Part shown: positions 7,485 to 17,566 of the stretch, in pieces
How positions within the stretch are numbered: the stretch's first letter is position 1
Layout: each line of letters starts with the position of its first letter
Made by a program: the position numbers and the translations under genes
From: Vicinamibacterales bacterium
GTDB taxonomy: Bacteria; Acidobacteriota; Vicinamibacteria; Vicinamibacterales; SCN-69-37
Reading direction: 5' to 3'
Assembly: GCA_030827135.1 (NCBI GenBank)
Contig: JAURFE010000004.1
Location: forward strand, 1 to 64,000
DNA: 64,000 nucleotides
Notes under the pieces: model-generated
Database searches by the model: none
The model's input: the letters and a program-made list of their open reading frames with translations, nothing else
Told to the model about the DNA's origin: nothing

Positions 7485-7561
7485 GCGCCCGTAGCTCAGC
7501 TGGATAGAGCACCGCCCTCCTAAGGCGGGGGTCACACGTTCAAATCGTGTCGGGCGCACCA
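7485..7561 (+). tRNA. tRNA-Arg (anticodon CCT)
   Basis: A complete cloverleaf with CCA encoded: acceptor GCGCCCG/CGGGCGC (7485-7491 and 7551-7557), D-arm stem GCTC/GAGC, anticodon stem CCGCC/GGCGG, loop CTCCTAA with anticodon CCT at 7519-7521, T-arm ACACG-TTCAAAT-CGTGT, then A-CCA. It reads AGG codons. Its 3' end is matched by a tRNA fragment at 15751-15792 in the same orientation, so it probably marks the left edge of a genomic island. Confidence 0.96.
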
Positions 7562-8270: not shown

Positions 8271-8299
8271 GCCGATAGTCCGTATTACGTGGGTCTTTC
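8271..8299. repeat. Island repeat, copy 1 (29 bp)
   Basis: Identical over 29 bp to the left part of the 55-bp repeats at 10036-10090 and 14925-14979 (core GTCCGTATTACGTGGGTC). All three copies have the same orientation. The stop codon of the truncated recombinase lies inside this copy. The right-hand 26 bp found in the other two copies are missing here and are replaced by recombinase coding sequence. Confidence 0.9.
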
Positions 8300-8953
8300 G
8301 CGGTACCTCATCCGGTCACCGCGGAAGGTTTGAAACATCAGCCGACCCGGCGACTTCTTTGCCAGTCGGAACAGCTGCCGACGCAGCGCCAATGAGAACG
8401 GCACCACGCGCTCGCGGTTACCCTTTCCAAGAACACGCATTTGGAGGCTGTCGAAATCGACTCGCGCCTGTTCGAGTCCGAGTGCCTCGTCAATTCGAAT
8501 ACCCGTATCGAGCAGCGTCAGCACAAGAACCCAGGCACGTGTCTCGTAGATACCCCGAGGGCGATGGGAAAGCAGCGCTCGAATCTCGGCGTCTGAGAAG
8601 GTCGGCAGAACCTCACTGCGCCTCGGAAGCGTTCGCATCTTGATCGGCGAGGACAAATGCCCTTCTGTCGAAAGCCACGACAGGAACGAGTTTATCGAGC
8701 GGATATTGACGTTCGATCCCCCCGGAGTCAGGCCATCGTTGCGCATTTCGCAGACCCATGTGTCGAGGTTCGCCCTTGTCAGGTCGCGCAGTTCGAGTGA
8801 ACCCTGCTTTCTGGCCTCCAAACACGCTCTGAGGCGGTTATACGCGACTCGGTAGATTGCTGAGGTCCTTGGGGACCAAGAACGGAGGTACGTCCCCTGC
8901 CTGACGACTTCCTGAAATAGAATGTCGATCTGCATGATAGTATGCTCGCCCAT
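8285..8953 (-). pseudogene. Tyrosine recombinase/integrase, C-terminally truncated
   Basis: 222 residues with a SAM-like core-binding domain (about 10-105) and the first half of the catalytic domain: Arg I in TGIRIDEALGL (Arg153) and the beta-hairpin lysine in GKGNRERVVPFS (Lys178). The box II HxxR motif and the nucleophilic tyrosine, which should follow about 60-100 residues later, are absent because the frame runs into repeat copy 1 and stops at its TAA. It should therefore be unable to cut and rejoin DNA. The start may be ATG 8953 or the later ATG 8935. It is divergent from the tRNA-Phe-like gene and is probably a relic of the enzyme that mobilised the island. Confidence 0.85.
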
Positions 8954-9008: not shown

Positions 9009-9084
9009 GCCGAGTTAGCTCAGTTGGTAGAGCATACGACTGAGCATCGTAGTGTCGGCAGTTCGATTCTTCCCCTCGGCACCA
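9009..9084 (+). tRNA. tRNA-Phe-like gene with GAG anticodon (possibly decayed)
   Basis: 76 nt folding as a class I cloverleaf with encoded CCA. Body features (acceptor GCCGAG/CTCGGC, D-arm, GTGTCGG variable region and T-loop TTCGATT) look like bacterial tRNA-Phe. The anticodon loop reads CTGAGCA, where tRNA-Phe has CTGAAAA, so the anticodon is GAG (9042-9044), which would read the Leu codon CUC, and position 37 is C instead of a purine. There are mismatches at pair 7-66 and at pair 51-63 of the T-stem. Tyrosine recombinases often integrate at tRNA genes, so this may be a damaged attachment site rather than a working tRNA. Confidence 0.75.
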
Positions 9085-10305: not shown

Positions 10306-10476
10306 TCACGGTTTCAGCGGATCGACGCAAATCCGAATCCTCTTAGTCGGCCCCACACGCTCGACCATGATCAGGTCTTTGGCAATCCACCGCTGCACCG
10401 TACGAATAGAGATGTTTTCTCGTGCGGCATATTCAGACACTTTCAGAAGCGTCGGCGACGGTGGCGGGCTGGTCAT
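10306..10476 (-). CDS. Excisionase-like helix-turn-helix protein
   Basis: I chose ATG 10476, giving 56 residues; an upstream frame to 10563 exists but adds low-complexity sequence. The stretch LLKVSEYAARENISIRTVQR followed by a basic/aromatic wing fits the MerR-like HTH_17/AlpA/Xis group, small DNA-binding proteins that direct integrases towards excision or activate element genes. It lies within the island, about 1.4 kb from the truncated recombinase. The 210 bp between it and the acyltransferase gene hold nothing recognisable. Confidence 0.6.
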   Translation of the reverse strand: MTSPPPSPTLLKVSEYAARENISIRTVQRWIAKDLIMVERVGPTKRIRICVDPLKP

Positions 10477-10688
10477 GCGGGAGACGCGCCTCCGTGGTTG
10501 TGCACTCACGCCGGGTGCCTGGTCCACAGCAGCAGACCGAGGGGACCAACGCCCCCACCGCAACGCCGATCACACACATCACTATCGTGGACACCCGTAC
10601 TTTGAGACGTGCTCAGCAGCCGAGCACAGCAGCGCCAGCCCCCAGATGCGCCGGAGAGGTCGGACCATAGAGGTGGTCTGCACGCGCC

Positions 10689-11546
10689 CTACTGACTGAG
10701 CCACGTCTCAAACTCCGAGCGCCACCGCTGCAGCTTCGTGGGGTTGGGGCCGTCATTGCCGAAGACTTCCTGCCAGTCACCAGACGCGCCGAGCCGCGAC
10801 GGTGACCCTTGAGGCGACCTAGTTTCCAGACGTTCGCGTGCAGGCCTGTCGCGCAGTGCCTCCGCGAGTGCCTGCATCTCGGCACGCAGTCGGTCGCTGA
10901 ACGCCTGCTCGTCCTCGTCCTGACGCATCACCATCGGCGCGCCGATCGCGATGCGAAGCATACCGCGTGCGGGCCAGTGCCGGCCTGCTGTCCAGAGTGC
11001 CTCACCGCCCTGCGACGCGATCGGCACAACCGTGCGTCCTGTGCGGCTGACGATGCGGGCGCAGCCCCGGTGGAGCGGCGCGATGCGGTCCGAGTAGCTG
11101 CGGGTGCCTTCCGGGTGCATGAAGATGGGGCGTTCACGCGGCACACGCGCGACCTCGTCAAAGAATCGCTGCATCGCCGCACGTCCTCCTCGCCGGTCGA
11201 CGAACAGATGCCCGAGGATACGGTAGCTGCCCGCCAGCAGTGGAATCCGTGCCAGTTCGAGCTTGCCGACGTAGACGGTGAGAGCCGGCAGGCATGCGGG
11301 ATACGCGAAGGTATCGAGCAGGGACGTGTGCGCTGCCGCCCAGATCGTGTCGGCGGTGGAGTCTGGAACACGTCCACGCACGTCGAGGCGCACGCCCATG
11401 CACCACAGCACGGCACGTCCCCAGTGCGGCATCAGCCGCAGGGTCACGCGAGGGAACGGCGCAAGCAGTCGCACGGTGGCTGCGTATCCAACCGTGACCA
11501 CCGCGCTTCCGATCAGCCCGAGCGGTCCACGCACGGCGTCCCACAC
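10689..11546 (-). CDS. PlsC-type lysophospholipid/1-acyl-glycerol acyltransferase
   Basis: Member of the LPLAT family that transfers acyl groups to hydroxyls of lipid acceptors at the inner membrane. GTG 11546 is preferred: it lies 2 nt after the upstream stop with GAGGCGG in front, giving 285 residues. Visible motifs: the catalytic HX4D (His73, Asp78 in AAHTSLLDTF) and the acceptor/phosphate motif EGTRS (146-150, in MHPEGTRS). A hydrophobic N-terminal segment (residues 8-30) probably anchors it. The C-terminal 60 residues are charged and extend beyond the normal domain. It is the third gene of a tight operon with a GNAT protein and an aminotransferase, so the acceptor may be an amino-acid-derived molecule rather than lysophosphatidate. 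Confidence 0.85.
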   Translation of the reverse strand: MWDAVRGPLGLIGSAVVTVGYAATVRLLAPFPRVTLRLMPHWGRAVLWCMGVRLDVRGRVPDSTADTIWAAAHTSLLDTFAYPACLPALTVYVGKLELARIPLLAGSYRILGHLFVDRRGGRAAMQRFFDEVARVPRERPIFMHPEGTRSYSDRIAPLHRGCARIVSRTGRTVVPIASQGGEALWTAGRHWPARGMLRIAIGAPMVMRQDEDEQAFSDRLRAEMQALAEALRDRPARERLETRSPQGSPSRLGASGDWQEVFGNDGPNPTKLQRWRSEFETWLSQ

Positions 11547-11548
11547 GG

Positions 11549-12277
11549 CTACCGCCTCAGTCGCTGCAGCCCCATCCGCAGCAGATTCCGGCAGTGCCAG
11601 AGAGGAAAGCACAGCCCCACAGGGAAGAGCACCAGCAGCTCAGACCCGTGCGTGACGTAGCGATTCCACGGCGTGGCCCATCCTTCCTCGACGGAGATGT
11701 CACGGCCGCCGGGCGCCAGTCCCGCATTGGCTGCGCCGTCCGGCAGCAGCCCTGTGCGGGCATCAAGACCTGTGAGGCCCGCGAGGTCGGCGAGTTCCGT
11801 GTAGCGCGCCCGCACCTCGGCAGGCAGTTCGTCGCACTCGCACCCGATGAGGTCCGGATAGATGCGCTGGCCGATGTGGAGCGTCTTGTAGGCAATCGGG
11901 CTGCAGACGCGGCCGAAGCAGTAGAGCCGGTCCGACACGCGCAGGCGCAGCAGTTTCCGCGTAAAGAATCGCAGGTAGTAGCGGACGAAGACGCGCGTCG
12001 AGAGGCGGCTGAGCACGCCGCGTCCCTGCCAGTCGGGATCGACTGCCGTCAGGCGGAATCCCATGTAGTGATGCGGGCGCGCCTCGTGCCACGACGCGAA
12101 GAGAAAGCCGCGGACGCGCGCGCCGTCGAGCGCGACACTGATGACCGGGTAGTCGTCGAAGCGGCGCAGCACCTCGCTGCGGGGAATAGCCTGAAACGCC
12201 CTGTCGGCAACATCGCAGATGCCGTCCCTCAGCGCACGGACGCTCGGGTCCGACGTGGTCGCCAGCGCAATCTTCAC
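11549..12277 (-). CDS. GNAT-family acyltransferase-like protein
   Basis: 242 residues from GTG 12277, whose GTGA overlaps the aminotransferase stop, implying translational coupling. The N-terminal half has the GNAT acyl-CoA-binding motif A (AVDPDWQGRGVLSRL, about residues 84-98) after a beta-strand pair (VISVALDGARVRGFLFASW). The C-terminus has a hydrophobic stretch (LLVLFPVGLCFPLW) that may attach it to the membrane. GNAT proteins transfer acyl groups to amines; with the neighbouring PlsC-type enzyme this is reminiscent of the OlsB/OlsA pair of ornithine-lipid synthesis, although I cannot show that the substrate is similar. Confidence 0.65.
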   Translation of the reverse strand: MKIALATTSDPSVRALRDGICDVADRAFQAIPRSEVLRRFDDYPVISVALDGARVRGFLFASWHEARPHHYMGFRLTAVDPDWQGRGVLSRLSTRVFVRYYLRFFTRKLLRLRVSDRLYCFGRVCSPIAYKTLHIGQRIYPDLIGCECDELPAEVRARYTELADLAGLTGLDARTGLLPDGAANAGLAPGGRDISVEEGWATPWNRYVTHGSELLVLFPVGLCFPLWHCRNLLRMGLQRLRR

Positions 12278-13398
12278 GACGCCGAGGCCGCCGGCGCCAG
12301 ATGTGCGCGCAGGCGCTGCACCATGCGGGCGTTCGCGTCGTAATCGAGCACGCTGATGCGCACGAATCGCCCCGGATACCGGTCGCCCTGACTGCTGATG
12401 TCGCGCAGCAGAATACCGTCGGCCGAGAGCCGCTGCACGAGTTCGCCGGCATCGAGGGTGCACTGCTCGAGATCGAGCAGCAGGCTGTTGATGTGCGAGT
12501 CGACCACGCGCAGGCCCTCGATGCTGCGCAGCTCGTCGCGCAGGTGTGCGCGGCGCTCCCGTGTGGCGGCTACCATCTGCCCGGCGTAGCTGGGGTCGCG
12601 CAGCGCTTCGATCGCCGCCATCTGCGCCAGGGTGGAGACCGTGTAGGGCGGCGTGCGCTCCTGCAGTGCGCTGGCGTACGAGGGCGAGACCAGGGCGTAG
12701 CCGACGCGCAGTCCGCTGAGCGCGTAGATCTTGGAGAGCGAGCGAAGAATCACCAGATTCGGGTGGCGCTGCACCTCTGCCTGAAGCGAGACGTCGCCGT
12801 CAGGCAGATAGCCGAAGTAGGTCTCGTCAATGAGACAGGGGCAGCGGCCGCCGATGGCCTCGAGGACGGCGCGGATCGACTCGGTACTCAGGCACTGCCC
12901 CGTGGGGTTGCTCGGGTTGACGAGCACCAATCCCCCGGCGCCGGTCTCGTCCAGTGTGCGGACCAGGGCGGCGGGTTCGATGCGGAATCCGGTGTCATAG
13001 GTCGGGAAGTAGTGCACCGTCTTCCCACAGAGACGCTGCAGAACATGGGCATACTCGCCGTAGCTCGGCGCCGGGATGACCACCGGCCCCTCCTGCCGGA
13101 AGATGTCGGGCAGCAGCCGAAAAATCAGGTCCGACGACCCGTTGCCGAGCACGATCTGCGCTTCCGGGATGCCGAACGCCTCGCCGATCACCCGCTTCAG
13201 CCCCTGCCCGCGCAGTGGTGGCGAGGTACGGCCGGCCCACGACAGATGGTCACGCAGGCAGGTCAGCACCCGAGGGCTGGGCGGGTACCAGGCATCCAGC
13301 ACGTCGGCCGCGAGCGTCTCGGGCGCCGCATCGATGTCTCGGAAGTCTTCGCCGATGAACTGATAGAGATCGCCGCCGTGGACGCAATACTCGCTCAA
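12274..13398 (-). CDS. PLP-dependent aminotransferase, HisC/CobD-like
   Basis: 374 residues from TTG 13398, preceded by CAGGAG. Fold-type I aminotransferase signatures are present: NPSNPTG (161-167), the cofactor-binding Asp191 (LIDETYFGY), the Schiff-base lysine Lys223 (RSLSKIYALSGLRVGYA) and a C-terminal Arg in GRFVRISV. The family includes histidinol-phosphate aminotransferase and threonine-phosphate decarboxylase. No histidine or cobalamin genes are nearby; it is instead the first gene of an operon with GNAT and PlsC-type acyltransferases, so it may make the amine that these acylate. Confidence 0.85.
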   Translation of the reverse strand: MSEYCVHGGDLYQFIGEDFRDIDAAPETLAADVLDAWYPPSPRVLTCLRDHLSWAGRTSPPLRGQGLKRVIGEAFGIPEAQIVLGNGSSDLIFRLLPDIFRQEGPVVIPAPSYGEYAHVLQRLCGKTVHYFPTYDTGFRIEPAALVRTLDETGAGGLVLVNPSNPTGQCLSTESIRAVLEAIGGRCPCLIDETYFGYLPDGDVSLQAEVQRHPNLVILRSLSKIYALSGLRVGYALVSPSYASALQERTPPYTVSTLAQMAAIEALRDPSYAGQMVAATRERRAHLRDELRSIEGLRVVDSHINSLLLDLEQCTLDAGELVQRLSADGILLRDISSQGDRYPGRFVRISVLDYDANARMVQRLRAHLAPAASAS

Positions 13399-13767
13399 AT
13401 GGTGCTCCTGTCAGGACGCCGTAAGCGGCCGCTTCCGGAGTGCGACGGGCAGGCGAGCCCGAAGCGGCTGTGCTGACGCGCACGGCATGATACAGGGTCG
13501 GGCATGTGTTCCGGAATATCGATGATGCGAGAAGAAAAATCGAGAATTGGAGACAGGAGGACTACAACAGCCTTCACCCGCACAGTTCGCTGGGGATGAA
13601 GTCACCGAATGAGTTTGCAAAGGGCTGGAGCGAGATGCTACCCAGCCAGGCCGCAGAGCGACTCATCATCGCCCCTGGATAACGTTGGGGGTACGCGAGC
13701 GGCAGCGAACGCCGCATAGCCCCGGACCAATGGTGCATCGATTAAAATCAGGGGTGATCGTGACAGA
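13399..13767. other. Intergenic region without a supported gene
   Basis: 369 bp between the TTG start of the aminotransferase and the stop of the AT-rich membrane-protein gene. It should contain the operon promoter (minus strand), but I find no clear -35/-10 pair, RNA gene or repeat. Base composition shifts from GC-rich to AT-rich across it, consistent with a junction between two acquired segments. Confidence 0.5.
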
Positions 13768-14745
13768 TCACTCTACCGTCGCGGTCTTCGCGACCTGTGC
13801 ATTGGGAGCAAGGCACATCAGGTCGTTCACTTCATCCAGAAGACACGGCTTTTTTACCTGAGACAGTGAGGTCGGACCTTTACGTCCCTTTTCTTTTGCT
13901 ACCTTTACGGCAGATTCCCACTTCAGATGCCACATATACAATTCGGCGCAAAACATCTGTTCAAGGTAGATCGAAAAGCTCCAAGCAAACGCGATATAAA
14001 TGAATACAACTGTCCATGCTTCGGTCGGCAATTGAGCTGGAATTCCAACTTTCCTTAGGAGACCCAAACTTAGAAACAGTAGCCCAACAGGTAGAAAGAT
14101 GAGGGCGGACGTAAGCTCTGTGAGGAGAAATCCCTTCGAGAAGGATGCGAGATTCGTGCGGAAGATCCCTAACCCTCGCTTCACGGAGCTGAAAGGCCCT
14201 TTTCCTTCCCAGGCTATCGCTGGCAGGATCAGAAAGACTAGCATCCTGACACCCTTTTTTAGGGCATCGAAAAATGCTGCACTAACTGAAAATTTCCCGT
14301 CCATGCCAGCCACAGCTCTGGCGGCGTTTTCTGCATTGAATTCGTCCGAATTTTCGTCTTTCTTTTTGGAGAATATTGCCTGCAGCACTGCCAATAAGAA
14401 CCAAACCACAGTCCAAAGGAGGATCAAAAAAAGAGCACGTGGAAAGTTCAGGAGAAACGAGTGTCCGAACGCTTTTATGAGGCTAATTGGCTTTCCTGTC
14501 TCTAAGTCTTCAATCATCTCAAGCAAGACGGAACAGGACATCGACAGAATGAACGAAAACAAGGCGATAATCCCGAATGCGACAAGAAGATTGTTCGATC
14601 CATCGTAGTAAAACTTGTACCAGAGTATAAAAGGTGCATAGACCAGCCACACTAGAAGTAGTGGGACCAGCACCTTAGGATGTTTCGAGAAAAGGACGAA
14701 TGAGGAATTTAAGATCGCCTTTTCGTTCTTAATAGAGAGGAACAC
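13768..14745 (-). CDS. AT-rich polytopic membrane protein, unknown function
   Basis: 325 residues from GTG 14745, with about six hydrophobic segments (for example VLVPLLLVWLVYAPFILWY, LLVAFGIIALFSFILSM, ALFLILLWTVVWFLLAVL and WTVVFIYIAFAWSFSIYL) and cytosolic-looking charged loops. Overall it resembles uncharacterised membrane proteins with tandem hydrophobic hairpins; I do not recognise a specific family. Codon use is strikingly different from the neighbours (many AAA, TTT, ATT and AAT codons), which indicates recent transfer from an AT-richer donor. It follows the frameshifted small ORF by 3 nt. Confidence 0.75.
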   Translation of the reverse strand: MFLSIKNEKAILNSSFVLFSKHPKVLVPLLLVWLVYAPFILWYKFYYDGSNNLLVAFGIIALFSFILSMSCSVLLEMIEDLETGKPISLIKAFGHSFLLNFPRALFLILLWTVVWFLLAVLQAIFSKKKDENSDEFNAENAARAVAGMDGKFSVSAAFFDALKKGVRMLVFLILPAIAWEGKGPFSSVKRGLGIFRTNLASFSKGFLLTELTSALIFLPVGLLFLSLGLLRKVGIPAQLPTEAWTVVFIYIAFAWSFSIYLEQMFCAELYMWHLKWESAVKVAKEKGRKGPTSLSQVKKPCLLDEVNDLMCLAPNAQVAKTATVE

Positions 14746-15750: not shown

Positions 15751-15792
15751 GCTCGGCGGGGGGCGACCGTTCAAATCGGTCCGGGCGCACCA
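15751..15792 (+). repeat. tRNA 3'-end fragment, probable right attachment remnant
   Basis: A perfect T-arm (GACCG-TTCAAAT-CGGTC, 15765-15781), acceptor 3' strand CGGGCGC and A-CCA, with no matching 5' half upstream. The acceptor strand and T-loop equal those of tRNA-Arg at 7485, but the T-stem differs with compensating changes on both strands, so it comes from a related intact tRNA rather than from decay of the local copy. Just to its right, 15824-15855 is a 16-bp tandem repeat (two units, one mismatch, with GTCCCGGGGTTCC in both). Confidence 0.75.
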
Positions 15793-15893: not shown

Positions 15894-16616
15894 ATGAAGG
15901 CAGAACAGCGTCACAAGCTGAAGCAGAACGATTTTGCACTGCGCGTCGCGTCGGCGACCGAAGTGCTCGCGGCCAACCGCGACCGCATCGTCATCGGCGT
16001 TGTCGCCGTGGTGGCCGTGGTCCTCATCGCGAGCGCGTATCAGTGGTGGAGCGGACGGACGGACGCGAAGGCCGAGTCGCTGCTGGCCATCGCCATGCAG
16101 ACCTACGACTCGCCGATCGTGCCGGCGCCGACGGTGCCCGGCGCCACGCAGCAGGCCGGCACGTTCCCGACCGAGCAGGCCCGCAACGAAGCCGCGCTCG
16201 CCGCCTTCCAGCAGGTCATCGACCAGTATCCGTCCACGCAGGCCGGCACGGCGGCCCGGTATCATCACGCCGCGTCGCTCGCAGCCATGGGGCGGTATGC
16301 CGACGCCGAGAAGGGCTTCCAGGCCACCATCGATGCGGCGGGGAATGATCTCTACACGGCGGCCGCGAAGATGGGGCAGGCCGAGACGCTGATCGCGGCG
16401 GGACAGTTCGATAAGGGCCTGCCGATCCTTGAGACGCTCGCGGCCGACCGCGACGGCATGCTGCCGGTTGATGGCGTGCTGATGGAACTGGCGCGCGGCT
16501 ACCAGAAGGCCGGCAAGACGGCCGAAGCCAGGACGACGTTCAAACGCATTGTGGACGAGTTCCCGGATTCGCTCTTCGTGCCCCAGGCGCGGACGGAACT
16601 GACGAAGCTGGGTTAG
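15894..16616 (+). CDS. YfgM-like tetratricopeptide membrane protein
   Basis: 240 residues: a cytosolic N-terminus of about 30 residues, one transmembrane helix (RIVIGVVAVVAVVLIASAYQWW, residues 31-52) and a periplasmic TPR domain (repeats around residues 105-235, such as AARYHHAASLAAMGRYADAEKGF and LARGYQKAGKTAEARTTF). This is the layout of YfgM/ancillary SecYEG translocon proteins, which hand exported proteins to periplasmic chaperones. GGAG lies 9 nt before the ATG. It is the first clearly host-like gene to the right of the island. Confidence 0.75.
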   Translation: MKAEQRHKLKQNDFALRVASATEVLAANRDRIVIGVVAVVAVVLIASAYQWWSGRTDAKAESLLAIAMQTYDSPIVPAPTVPGATQQAGTFPTEQARNEAALAAFQQVIDQYPSTQAGTAARYHHAASLAAMGRYADAEKGFQATIDAAGNDLYTAAAKMGQAETLIAAGQFDKGLPILETLAADRDGMLPVDGVLMELARGYQKAGKTAEARTTFKRIVDEFPDSLFVPQARTELTKLG

Positions 16617-16672
16617 GCGCGCGCAAGCCCAGCGCACCTTGCGTACGATGGCGCGCTACAACCCAGCGCGCC

Positions 16673-17566
16673 CTACTTGAGACCGAACTTGTAGGTCAGC
16701 AACTTGTAGACCAGTCGCGCCGCGACGAAGTTCGACGACCAGTGCCCGGGAATCGGGCAGAGTTCGACAACGTCGCAGGCGACGACGTGTTTCTGCTCGA
16801 AGGTGCGGCGTAAGAGCGTCGTCACTTCGCGCCAGGCGAGACCGCCGGGCTCGGGTGTCCCCGTTGCAGAAATCAATCCGGGCTCCAGGCCATCAAGATC
16901 GACGGTGATGTACACGGGACCGGTCAACGAGTCCAGCACACGGTCCATCCACCTGGGGTTGTCCCGCATGTTCCAGTCATAAAAGATCGTCGTGTTCAGG
17001 CCGGGCACGGCCCTGGCCTCTTCCTCCGAGATATTGCGGATGCCGACTTGGACGAGTGATTCCACATGGTCGAGCGTGCGCATCATCGCGGACGCATGGC
17101 TGTTGGCTTCGCCCTGGTAGCCGTCGCGGAGATCGGCGTGCGCATCGATCTGCAGCACCGTGAGGCCTTCGTGCCTGGCAGCGGCAGCGGCGACCAGCGG
17201 CGGCGTGATCGAATGTTCACCGCCCAGCGTCACCAGAAACTTGCCGTCGTCCATGATCTCGCCCGCGACGCGACGAATGTGCGCGACCGCAGCGTCCATG
17301 GTACCGTGCGAAAGATCCATCTCCGGCATCGTGAAGATGCCGCGCGGATGCACGTCCACGCCGACTTCTTCATCCCACAACTCGACCTGGGCGGACGCGA
17401 CGATAATCTCGCGGGGGCCGAAGCGCGTGCCGGGCATGTACGACACGGTCTTCTCAAAAGGACAGGGGAGAATCACGGCAGCCGAGTCGTCGTACGACCG
17501 GGGCTCAGGCAGAACGCCCAGAAAGGTAAGGTTGGGGTACTGGTCGTAATCGGTGGGCTGCGGCAT
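16673..17566 (-). CDS. speB: Agmatinase (arginase/ureohydrolase family)
   Basis: 297 residues from ATG 17566, which shares a base with the stop of the preceding gene (TAATG), so translation is probably coupled. The binuclear Mn2+ site is complete: His118 (GGEHS), Asp141/His143/Asp145 (DAHADLRD) and Asp223/Asp225 (DLDGLEP). Hydrolyses agmatine to putrescine and urea (polyamine synthesis). Family members with other guanidino substrates exist, and none of the neighbours encodes arginine decarboxylase, so the exact substrate is probable rather than certain. Confidence 0.85.
   Translation of the reverse strand: MPQPTDYDQYPNLTFLGVLPEPRSYDDSAAVILPCPFEKTVSYMPGTRFGPREIIVASAQVELWDEEVGVDVHPRGIFTMPEMDLSHGTMDAAVAHIRRVAGEIMDDGKFLVTLGGEHSITPPLVAAAAARHEGLTVLQIDAHADLRDGYQGEANSHASAMMRTLDHVESLVQVGIRNISEEEARAVPGLNTTIFYDWNMRDNPRWMDRVLDSLTGPVYITVDLDGLEPGLISATGTPEPGGLAWREVTTLLRRTFEQKHVVACDVVELCPIPGHWSSNFVAARLVYKLLTYKFGLK

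Follow-up and report, generated by a model that had tools for sequence, protein, structure and literature searches.

What three tightly coupled genes, encoding an aminotransferase, a putative N-acyltransferase and an O-acyltransferase, might produce together is the question raised by a short operon in the window (the whole 64,000-nucleotide stretch of DNA analysed here, which lies on contig C42 of the host genome, G000, and in which the three genes are consecutive). The first-pass annotation had described the trio as translationally coupled and as a candidate aminolipid pathway carried by an island. The coupling was borne out on the minus strand (Table 1): the TGA stop codon of the aminotransferase (AT) gene lies inside the GTGA at which the GNAT-like gene starts (context TCGTGAAG), and the TAG stop codon of the latter is followed by CC and then by the GTG start of the PlsC gene, i.e., by a gap of 2 nt. 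All three frames have a coding-type GC content at the successive codon positions (AT, 0.70/0.47/0.86; GNAT-like, 0.69/0.49/0.83; PlsC, 0.74/0.54/0.77), with MutS as coding control (0.72/0.47/0.82), and the short GTG start of the GNAT-like gene is favored because the stretch upstream of that GTG is not coding-like. The GC content of the operon (0.67-0.68) is genome-like and falls to 0.57 and 0.47 in the flanking stretches. Adjoining the operon is an ORF of 85 residues (10306-10563) of the helix-turn-helix, excisionase-like kind, with no Pfam match.

Table 1. The operon and the elements of the island that carries it (positions in the window).
Feature	Position	Strand	Basis or remark
tRNA-Arg(CCT), island insertion site	7485-7561	plus	ARAGORN; attL is its 3' end, 7540-7561
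Tyrosine integrase, C-terminally truncated	8285-8953	minus	PF00589, profile positions 6-106 of 172
PlsC/LPAAT-family O-acyltransferase	10689-11546	minus	PF01553, E 4e-15; GTG start at 11546
GNAT-like putative N-acyltransferase, hydrophobic C-terminus	11549-12277	minus	Weak GNAT matches; motif WQGRGVL; coding-type codon GC
Aminotransferase (AT)	12274-13398	minus	Fold type I; HisC/CobD superfamily, separate clade
IS3-type transposase C-terminal fragment, just upstream of AT	13503-13682	plus	rve_3, PF13683, E 1e-9 (query with one residue wrong)
attR-like copy of the tRNA-Arg 3' end	15771-15792	plus	19 of 22 bases identical

The trio is carried by an 8.2-kb island inserted at tRNA-Arg. Two observations independently confirm the location that had been suspected: the copy of the tRNA-Arg 3' end, and a comparison with the sister genome G134, in which the left flank (ending at tRNA-Arg(CCT)) and the right flank (from 15894) lie about 1.1 kb apart, at 85% identity. 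A third genome of the genus, G557, has about 5 kb of other sequence after the same tRNA, and the insertion site therefore appears to be a hot spot. Inside the island, ARAGORN also calls a tRNA-Leu(GAG) of 76 nt (9009-9084); bacterial tRNA-Leu is expected to have a long variable arm, for which 76 nt is too short, and the call may hence be mis-typed or the gene altered. A further gene (13768-14745) encodes an apparently multi-membrane protein of 325 residues without a Pfam match; its GC content is about 47%, against 66% for the surrounding region. Between a TPR gene and an arginase-family gene is a dispersed repeat some 60 bp long (16616-16677), dozens of further copies of which are present in the host genome and in G134.

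The assignment of the first gene product to the aminotransferases stands (Pfam Aminotran_1_2, PF00155, E 7e-43), and it shares superfamily and PLP residues with HisC and CobD. It could thus be read as the histidinol-phosphate aminotransferase of the cell, in line with the annotation of its Streptomyces relatives as histidinol-phosphate transaminase and with a score of 191 bits in the HisC superfamily. However, a search for histidinol dehydrogenase (HisD, Histidinol_dh) found none in the host genome, which is rated 100% complete, the control search being positive in 13 of 14 genomes. The score against the HisC model TIGR01141 (190.8 bits) is below the curated cut-off of 276.55, as is that against the CobD model TIGR01140 (191 bits; cut-off 290.55); the two families tie among the NCBIfam scores of the AT, and CobD is the best match of related proteins in which a GNAT domain is fused to an AT. 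In a maximum-likelihood tree that took in HisC from E. coli and Acinetobacter (the latter beside hisD) and CobD from cobalamin contexts, the AT is the first branch within a separate clade shared with these GNAT-AT fusions (support 100/99), with HisC on its own side (98/97) and the CobD rows apart. Grouping with true HisC, which had been named beforehand as a possible refutation of a lipid role, did not occur. The clade is marked by the motifs ADVLDAW(F/Y)xPxP and TSPP, and the window AT falls into it with ADVLDAW..RTSPP; RTSPP stands where E. coli HisC has RYP(E). The two C-terminal arginines of HisC from E. coli, which lie in its LRD and LRIT motifs, do not vary within the AT family. Because the host has no detectable HisD and the AT lies in a separate clade, a histidine role is ruled out as far as sequence can do so, and we consider it extremely improbable. 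Membership of CobD was likewise rejected, given the sub-threshold score, the separate position in the tree and the lack of cob genes among the operon neighbors examined, which include no histidine genes either. By these comparisons, the AT is neither HisC nor CobD. Elsewhere in the host genome (G000:C22:405690-407902), two adjacent HisC-like proteins with Tat-like signal-type N-termini are the best HisC matches of this genome without HisD.

The middle protein is weakly a GNAT, and its role as an N-acyltransferase is putative. Its only Pfam match is Acetyltransf_7 (E 0.048; 14.5 bits against a cut-off of 27), a PHROGs acetyltransferase match is similarly weak (E 0.036), and its WQGRGVL resembles motif A. 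The hydrophobic tail noted at first pass was seen at about residues 207-226. The Pfam scan gave no match to PF13444 (OlsB family), and an AlphaFold (AF2) model from the single sequence has a pLDDT of 36, too low to be of use. No relatives were detected in 297 genomes of the phylum, in plasmids or in viral contigs; the sole match among genome contigs was rejected as an unrelated protein beside a MoaA-like gene that shares the GNAT motif only. The PlsC assignment of the third protein holds (56.2 bits; cut-off 23): HX4D (HTSLLD) and PEGTR are both present, and in an alignment to PlsC of T. maritima (5KYM) the equivalents of Lys105 and Arg159 are kept. Arg159 of the T. maritima enzyme is said to hold the phosphate of lysophosphatidate; the aminolipid enzyme SalA lacks this residue (PMC8319176).

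If the three proteins act together, similar combinations might be expected elsewhere. The unfused order of AT, GNAT and PlsC was found in no other genome of the sample, which comprised the host's own phylum, Chloroflexota and plasmids and is a narrow slice of the bacterial tree, but in relatives GNAT and AT are fused, and PlsC, CdsA or PlsY is encoded separately. The other members of the AT clade come from the host's order and from Streptomyces plasmids. Apart from an unfused AT in G257, each is a fusion some 570-610 residues long, with a GNAT domain at the N-terminus. Some of the fused domains score above the Pfam FeeM cut-off, and the best PDB matches of the domain profile are AHL autoinducer synthases, at weak significance (E 0.002). 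The FeeM/AHL synthase N-acyltransferases thus include the GNAT domain of the sister ATs and not the window GNAT, which has no detectable similarity to the fused domains and is encoded by a separate gene beside an unfused AT. In G134, G610 and G513, the fusion has a PlsC gene as its tail-to-tail neighbor (PlsC-domain genes number only 2-9 in each of seven genomes examined); these pairs come from one clade of related genomes and may represent a single ancestral pairing. On Streptomyces plasmids, four loci have a 4-nt overlap between the fusion and a CdsA-like gene whose CDS signature (SMVKRGARAKD..GGLLDR) is intact; a fifth Streptomyces locus, L009, has the fusion without a CdsA-like gene. There is no adjacent PlsC at G521 (fusion), G239 (fusion, contig edge) or G257. 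The G239 fusion, on a 3.7-kb contig, is followed by an arginine decarboxylase gene of the SpeA type (L013, 1-1728), possibly a chance neighbor.

A Gram-positive counterpart is provided by an operon of Cytobacillus spongiae (L062, 5375-9425), which encodes PlsY (the glycerol-3-phosphate acyltransferase type), a fusion of a FeeM-like GNAT with a class V (PhnW-like) aminotransferase unrelated to the window AT, and an LtaS-like protein, with a 4-nt overlap. Such an N-acyltransferase was hence joined to two aminotransferase families, each beside enzymes of the glycerol-3-phosphate lipid route. The AT family is patchily distributed, being present in 4 of the 396 genomes sampled from the phylum and in 5 of 162 from the order; the GNAT-AT fusion had no match in 201 Chloroflexota genomes, in a search without positive control, and an AT profile search of viral contigs found nothing.

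The window PlsC falls outside the clade of fusion-adjacent PlsCs (joint grouping rejected, p-AU 0.032), although its long branch calls for caution; AT thus seems to have acquired a PlsC partner on two occasions. Since the window GNAT is also unlike the fused GNATs, the trio looks independently assembled; most simply, pathways of one kind would have arisen separately around a common aminotransferase. Alternatively, the three genes might be separate island cargo, or decaying, and share no joint pathway, as could be suggested by the truncated integrase, by the IS3 fragment upstream and by the absence of the same order from the other genomes. The tight coupling, the intact catalytic motifs, the coding-type codon use and the recurrence of the GNAT-AT-lipid enzyme association elsewhere argue against this explanation, which we regard as rather improbable.

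Which product would such an assembly yield? The earlier proposal, that an amine is made locally and then N-acylated into a lipid, is still the best reading, given a family that recurs with an N-acyltransferase and lipid enzymes. The analogy to ornithine lipids (OlsB/OlsA) that accompanied it probably does not hold. By that analogy, the AT would make an unusual phosphate-free amino acid or amine, the GNAT would add a 3-hydroxyacyl chain, and PlsC would acylate the hydroxyl of this chain, as OlsA does. N-acylation followed by O-acylation through a PlsC homolog is indeed the known scheme of OlsB/OlsA and of related aminolipid pathways (GluB, GlsB/GlsA, SalA) (PMC11631085), and the window PlsC does match the OlsA models below their threshold. 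However, these matches reach only 42 and 31 bits, far below the equivalog cut-off of 300, and the phosphate-holding arginine that SalA lacks is kept. Unlike the known aminolipid pathways, the present operon includes a PLP enzyme, and its GNAT has no PF13444 domain. The substrates of PlsY, PlsC and CdsA are glycerol 3-phosphate, its lyso-lipid and phosphatidate, respectively. Because the partners found among the relatives thus belong to glycerol-3-phosphate-type lipids and point to a phosphorylated backbone, ornithine-type chemistry is a poorer match than a phosphorylated amino alcohol; we consider it unlikely.

Serinol phosphate (2-amino-1,3-propanediol phosphate) fits the trio, because its amine, hydroxyl and phosphate are exactly the groups used by these enzyme families. 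HisC acts on imidazole acetol phosphate, a substituted dihydroxyacetone phosphate (DHAP). The PlsC HX4D motif with the Lys105 and Arg159 equivalents, together with the C-terminal HisC arginines retained in the AT, led to the proposal of a route from DHAP to a diacyl serinol phosphate: the AT would aminate DHAP to serinol phosphate, the GNAT-like protein would add a fatty acyl chain to the amine, and the PlsC-type enzyme would esterify the free hydroxyl of the resulting N-acyl serinol phosphate. The product, N,O-diacyl serinol phosphate, would be the amide (nitrogen) analog of phosphatidic acid, which housekeeping or dedicated CdsA and headgroup enzymes could process further. We hold with roughly even confidence that the operon encodes this compact lipid pathway. 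Precedents for the first step are known: Cj1437 of Campylobacter jejuni transaminates DHAP with L-glutamate, in a pathway that uses (S)-serinol phosphate (PMC12096443; also PMC12409886), and the N-terminal domain of RtxA of Bradyrhizobium elkanii converts DHAP to serinol phosphate (PMC3222319). The AT is likened to these PLP enzymes by the described reaction; their product is used for a capsule amide or for rhizobitoxine and not for a lipid.

Apart from these precedents, the serinol phosphate route is supported by the clade that the AT shares with FeeM-like fusions apart from HisC, by the PlsC, CdsA and PlsY partners, by the apparent twofold pairing of AT with PlsC, by the HisC arginines and by the negative HisD search in the host. 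It is weakened by a middle protein whose GNAT match is weak and which lacks a family for comparison, by the narrow sampling, and by the loci without adjacent PlsC (G521, G239, G257) or CdsA (L009). Another phospho-ketone or an amino acid is a possible alternative substrate of the AT. The AT might also be a CobD-like decarboxylase that forms ethanolamine phosphate or aminopropanol phosphate for N-acylation by the GNAT, with PlsC acting on something else. The NCBIfam ranking of CobD, best for the fusions and level with HisC for the window AT, would agree with this, as would the decarboxylation of serine phosphate by Cj1436 (PMC12409886); yet the product would offer PlsC no free hydroxyl, and the PhnW-kind class V aminotransferase of the Cytobacillus system points to transamination, making decarboxylation distinctly improbable. 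A ceramide-type route (serine palmitoyltransferase with a GNAT ceramide synthase) was set aside, as no alpha-oxoamine synthase occurs among the AT matches listed, the best of which are CobD and HisC; papers searched for such a route yielded nothing of use.

Returning to the serinol phosphate route, one of the closest known systems is the Gemella hm-NAS (Cohen et al., 2017), in whose gene an N-acyl synthase and an aminotransferase domain are reportedly combined; we know of no PlsC, CdsA or PlsY partner of it. In contrast, the AT described here is of class I (HisC-like) and unfused, an O-acyltransferase is coupled to it, and the GNAT has no detectable FeeM kinship. N-acyl serinols have been attributed in a review to commensal Gemella genes (PMC10666787), and, according to a 2024 review, no bacterial N-acylated amino acid had been reported to be acylated further (PMC11631085). 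The literature searched (most subscription papers lie outside it) describes neither this trio nor a phospholipid with a serinol phosphate backbone. Tentatively, and with somewhat less than even confidence, a modular and mobile pathway might have been assembled independently several times from a class I or class V aminotransferase, a FeeM-like or other GNAT, and a PlsC, PlsY or CdsA partner, to make amide-linked serinol phospholipids, a family undescribed in that literature.

If true, some bacteria would have an accessory route to phospholipids in which an amide replaces an ester. This route would draw on DHAP alongside the usual glycerol-3-phosphate route and would be mobile enough to occur on plasmids and in a tRNA island. 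A function would thereby be assigned to proteins that currently carry the annotation histidinol-phosphate transaminase, and N-acyl amides, so far viewed as signaling or free lipids, would be linked to the synthesis of membrane lipids.
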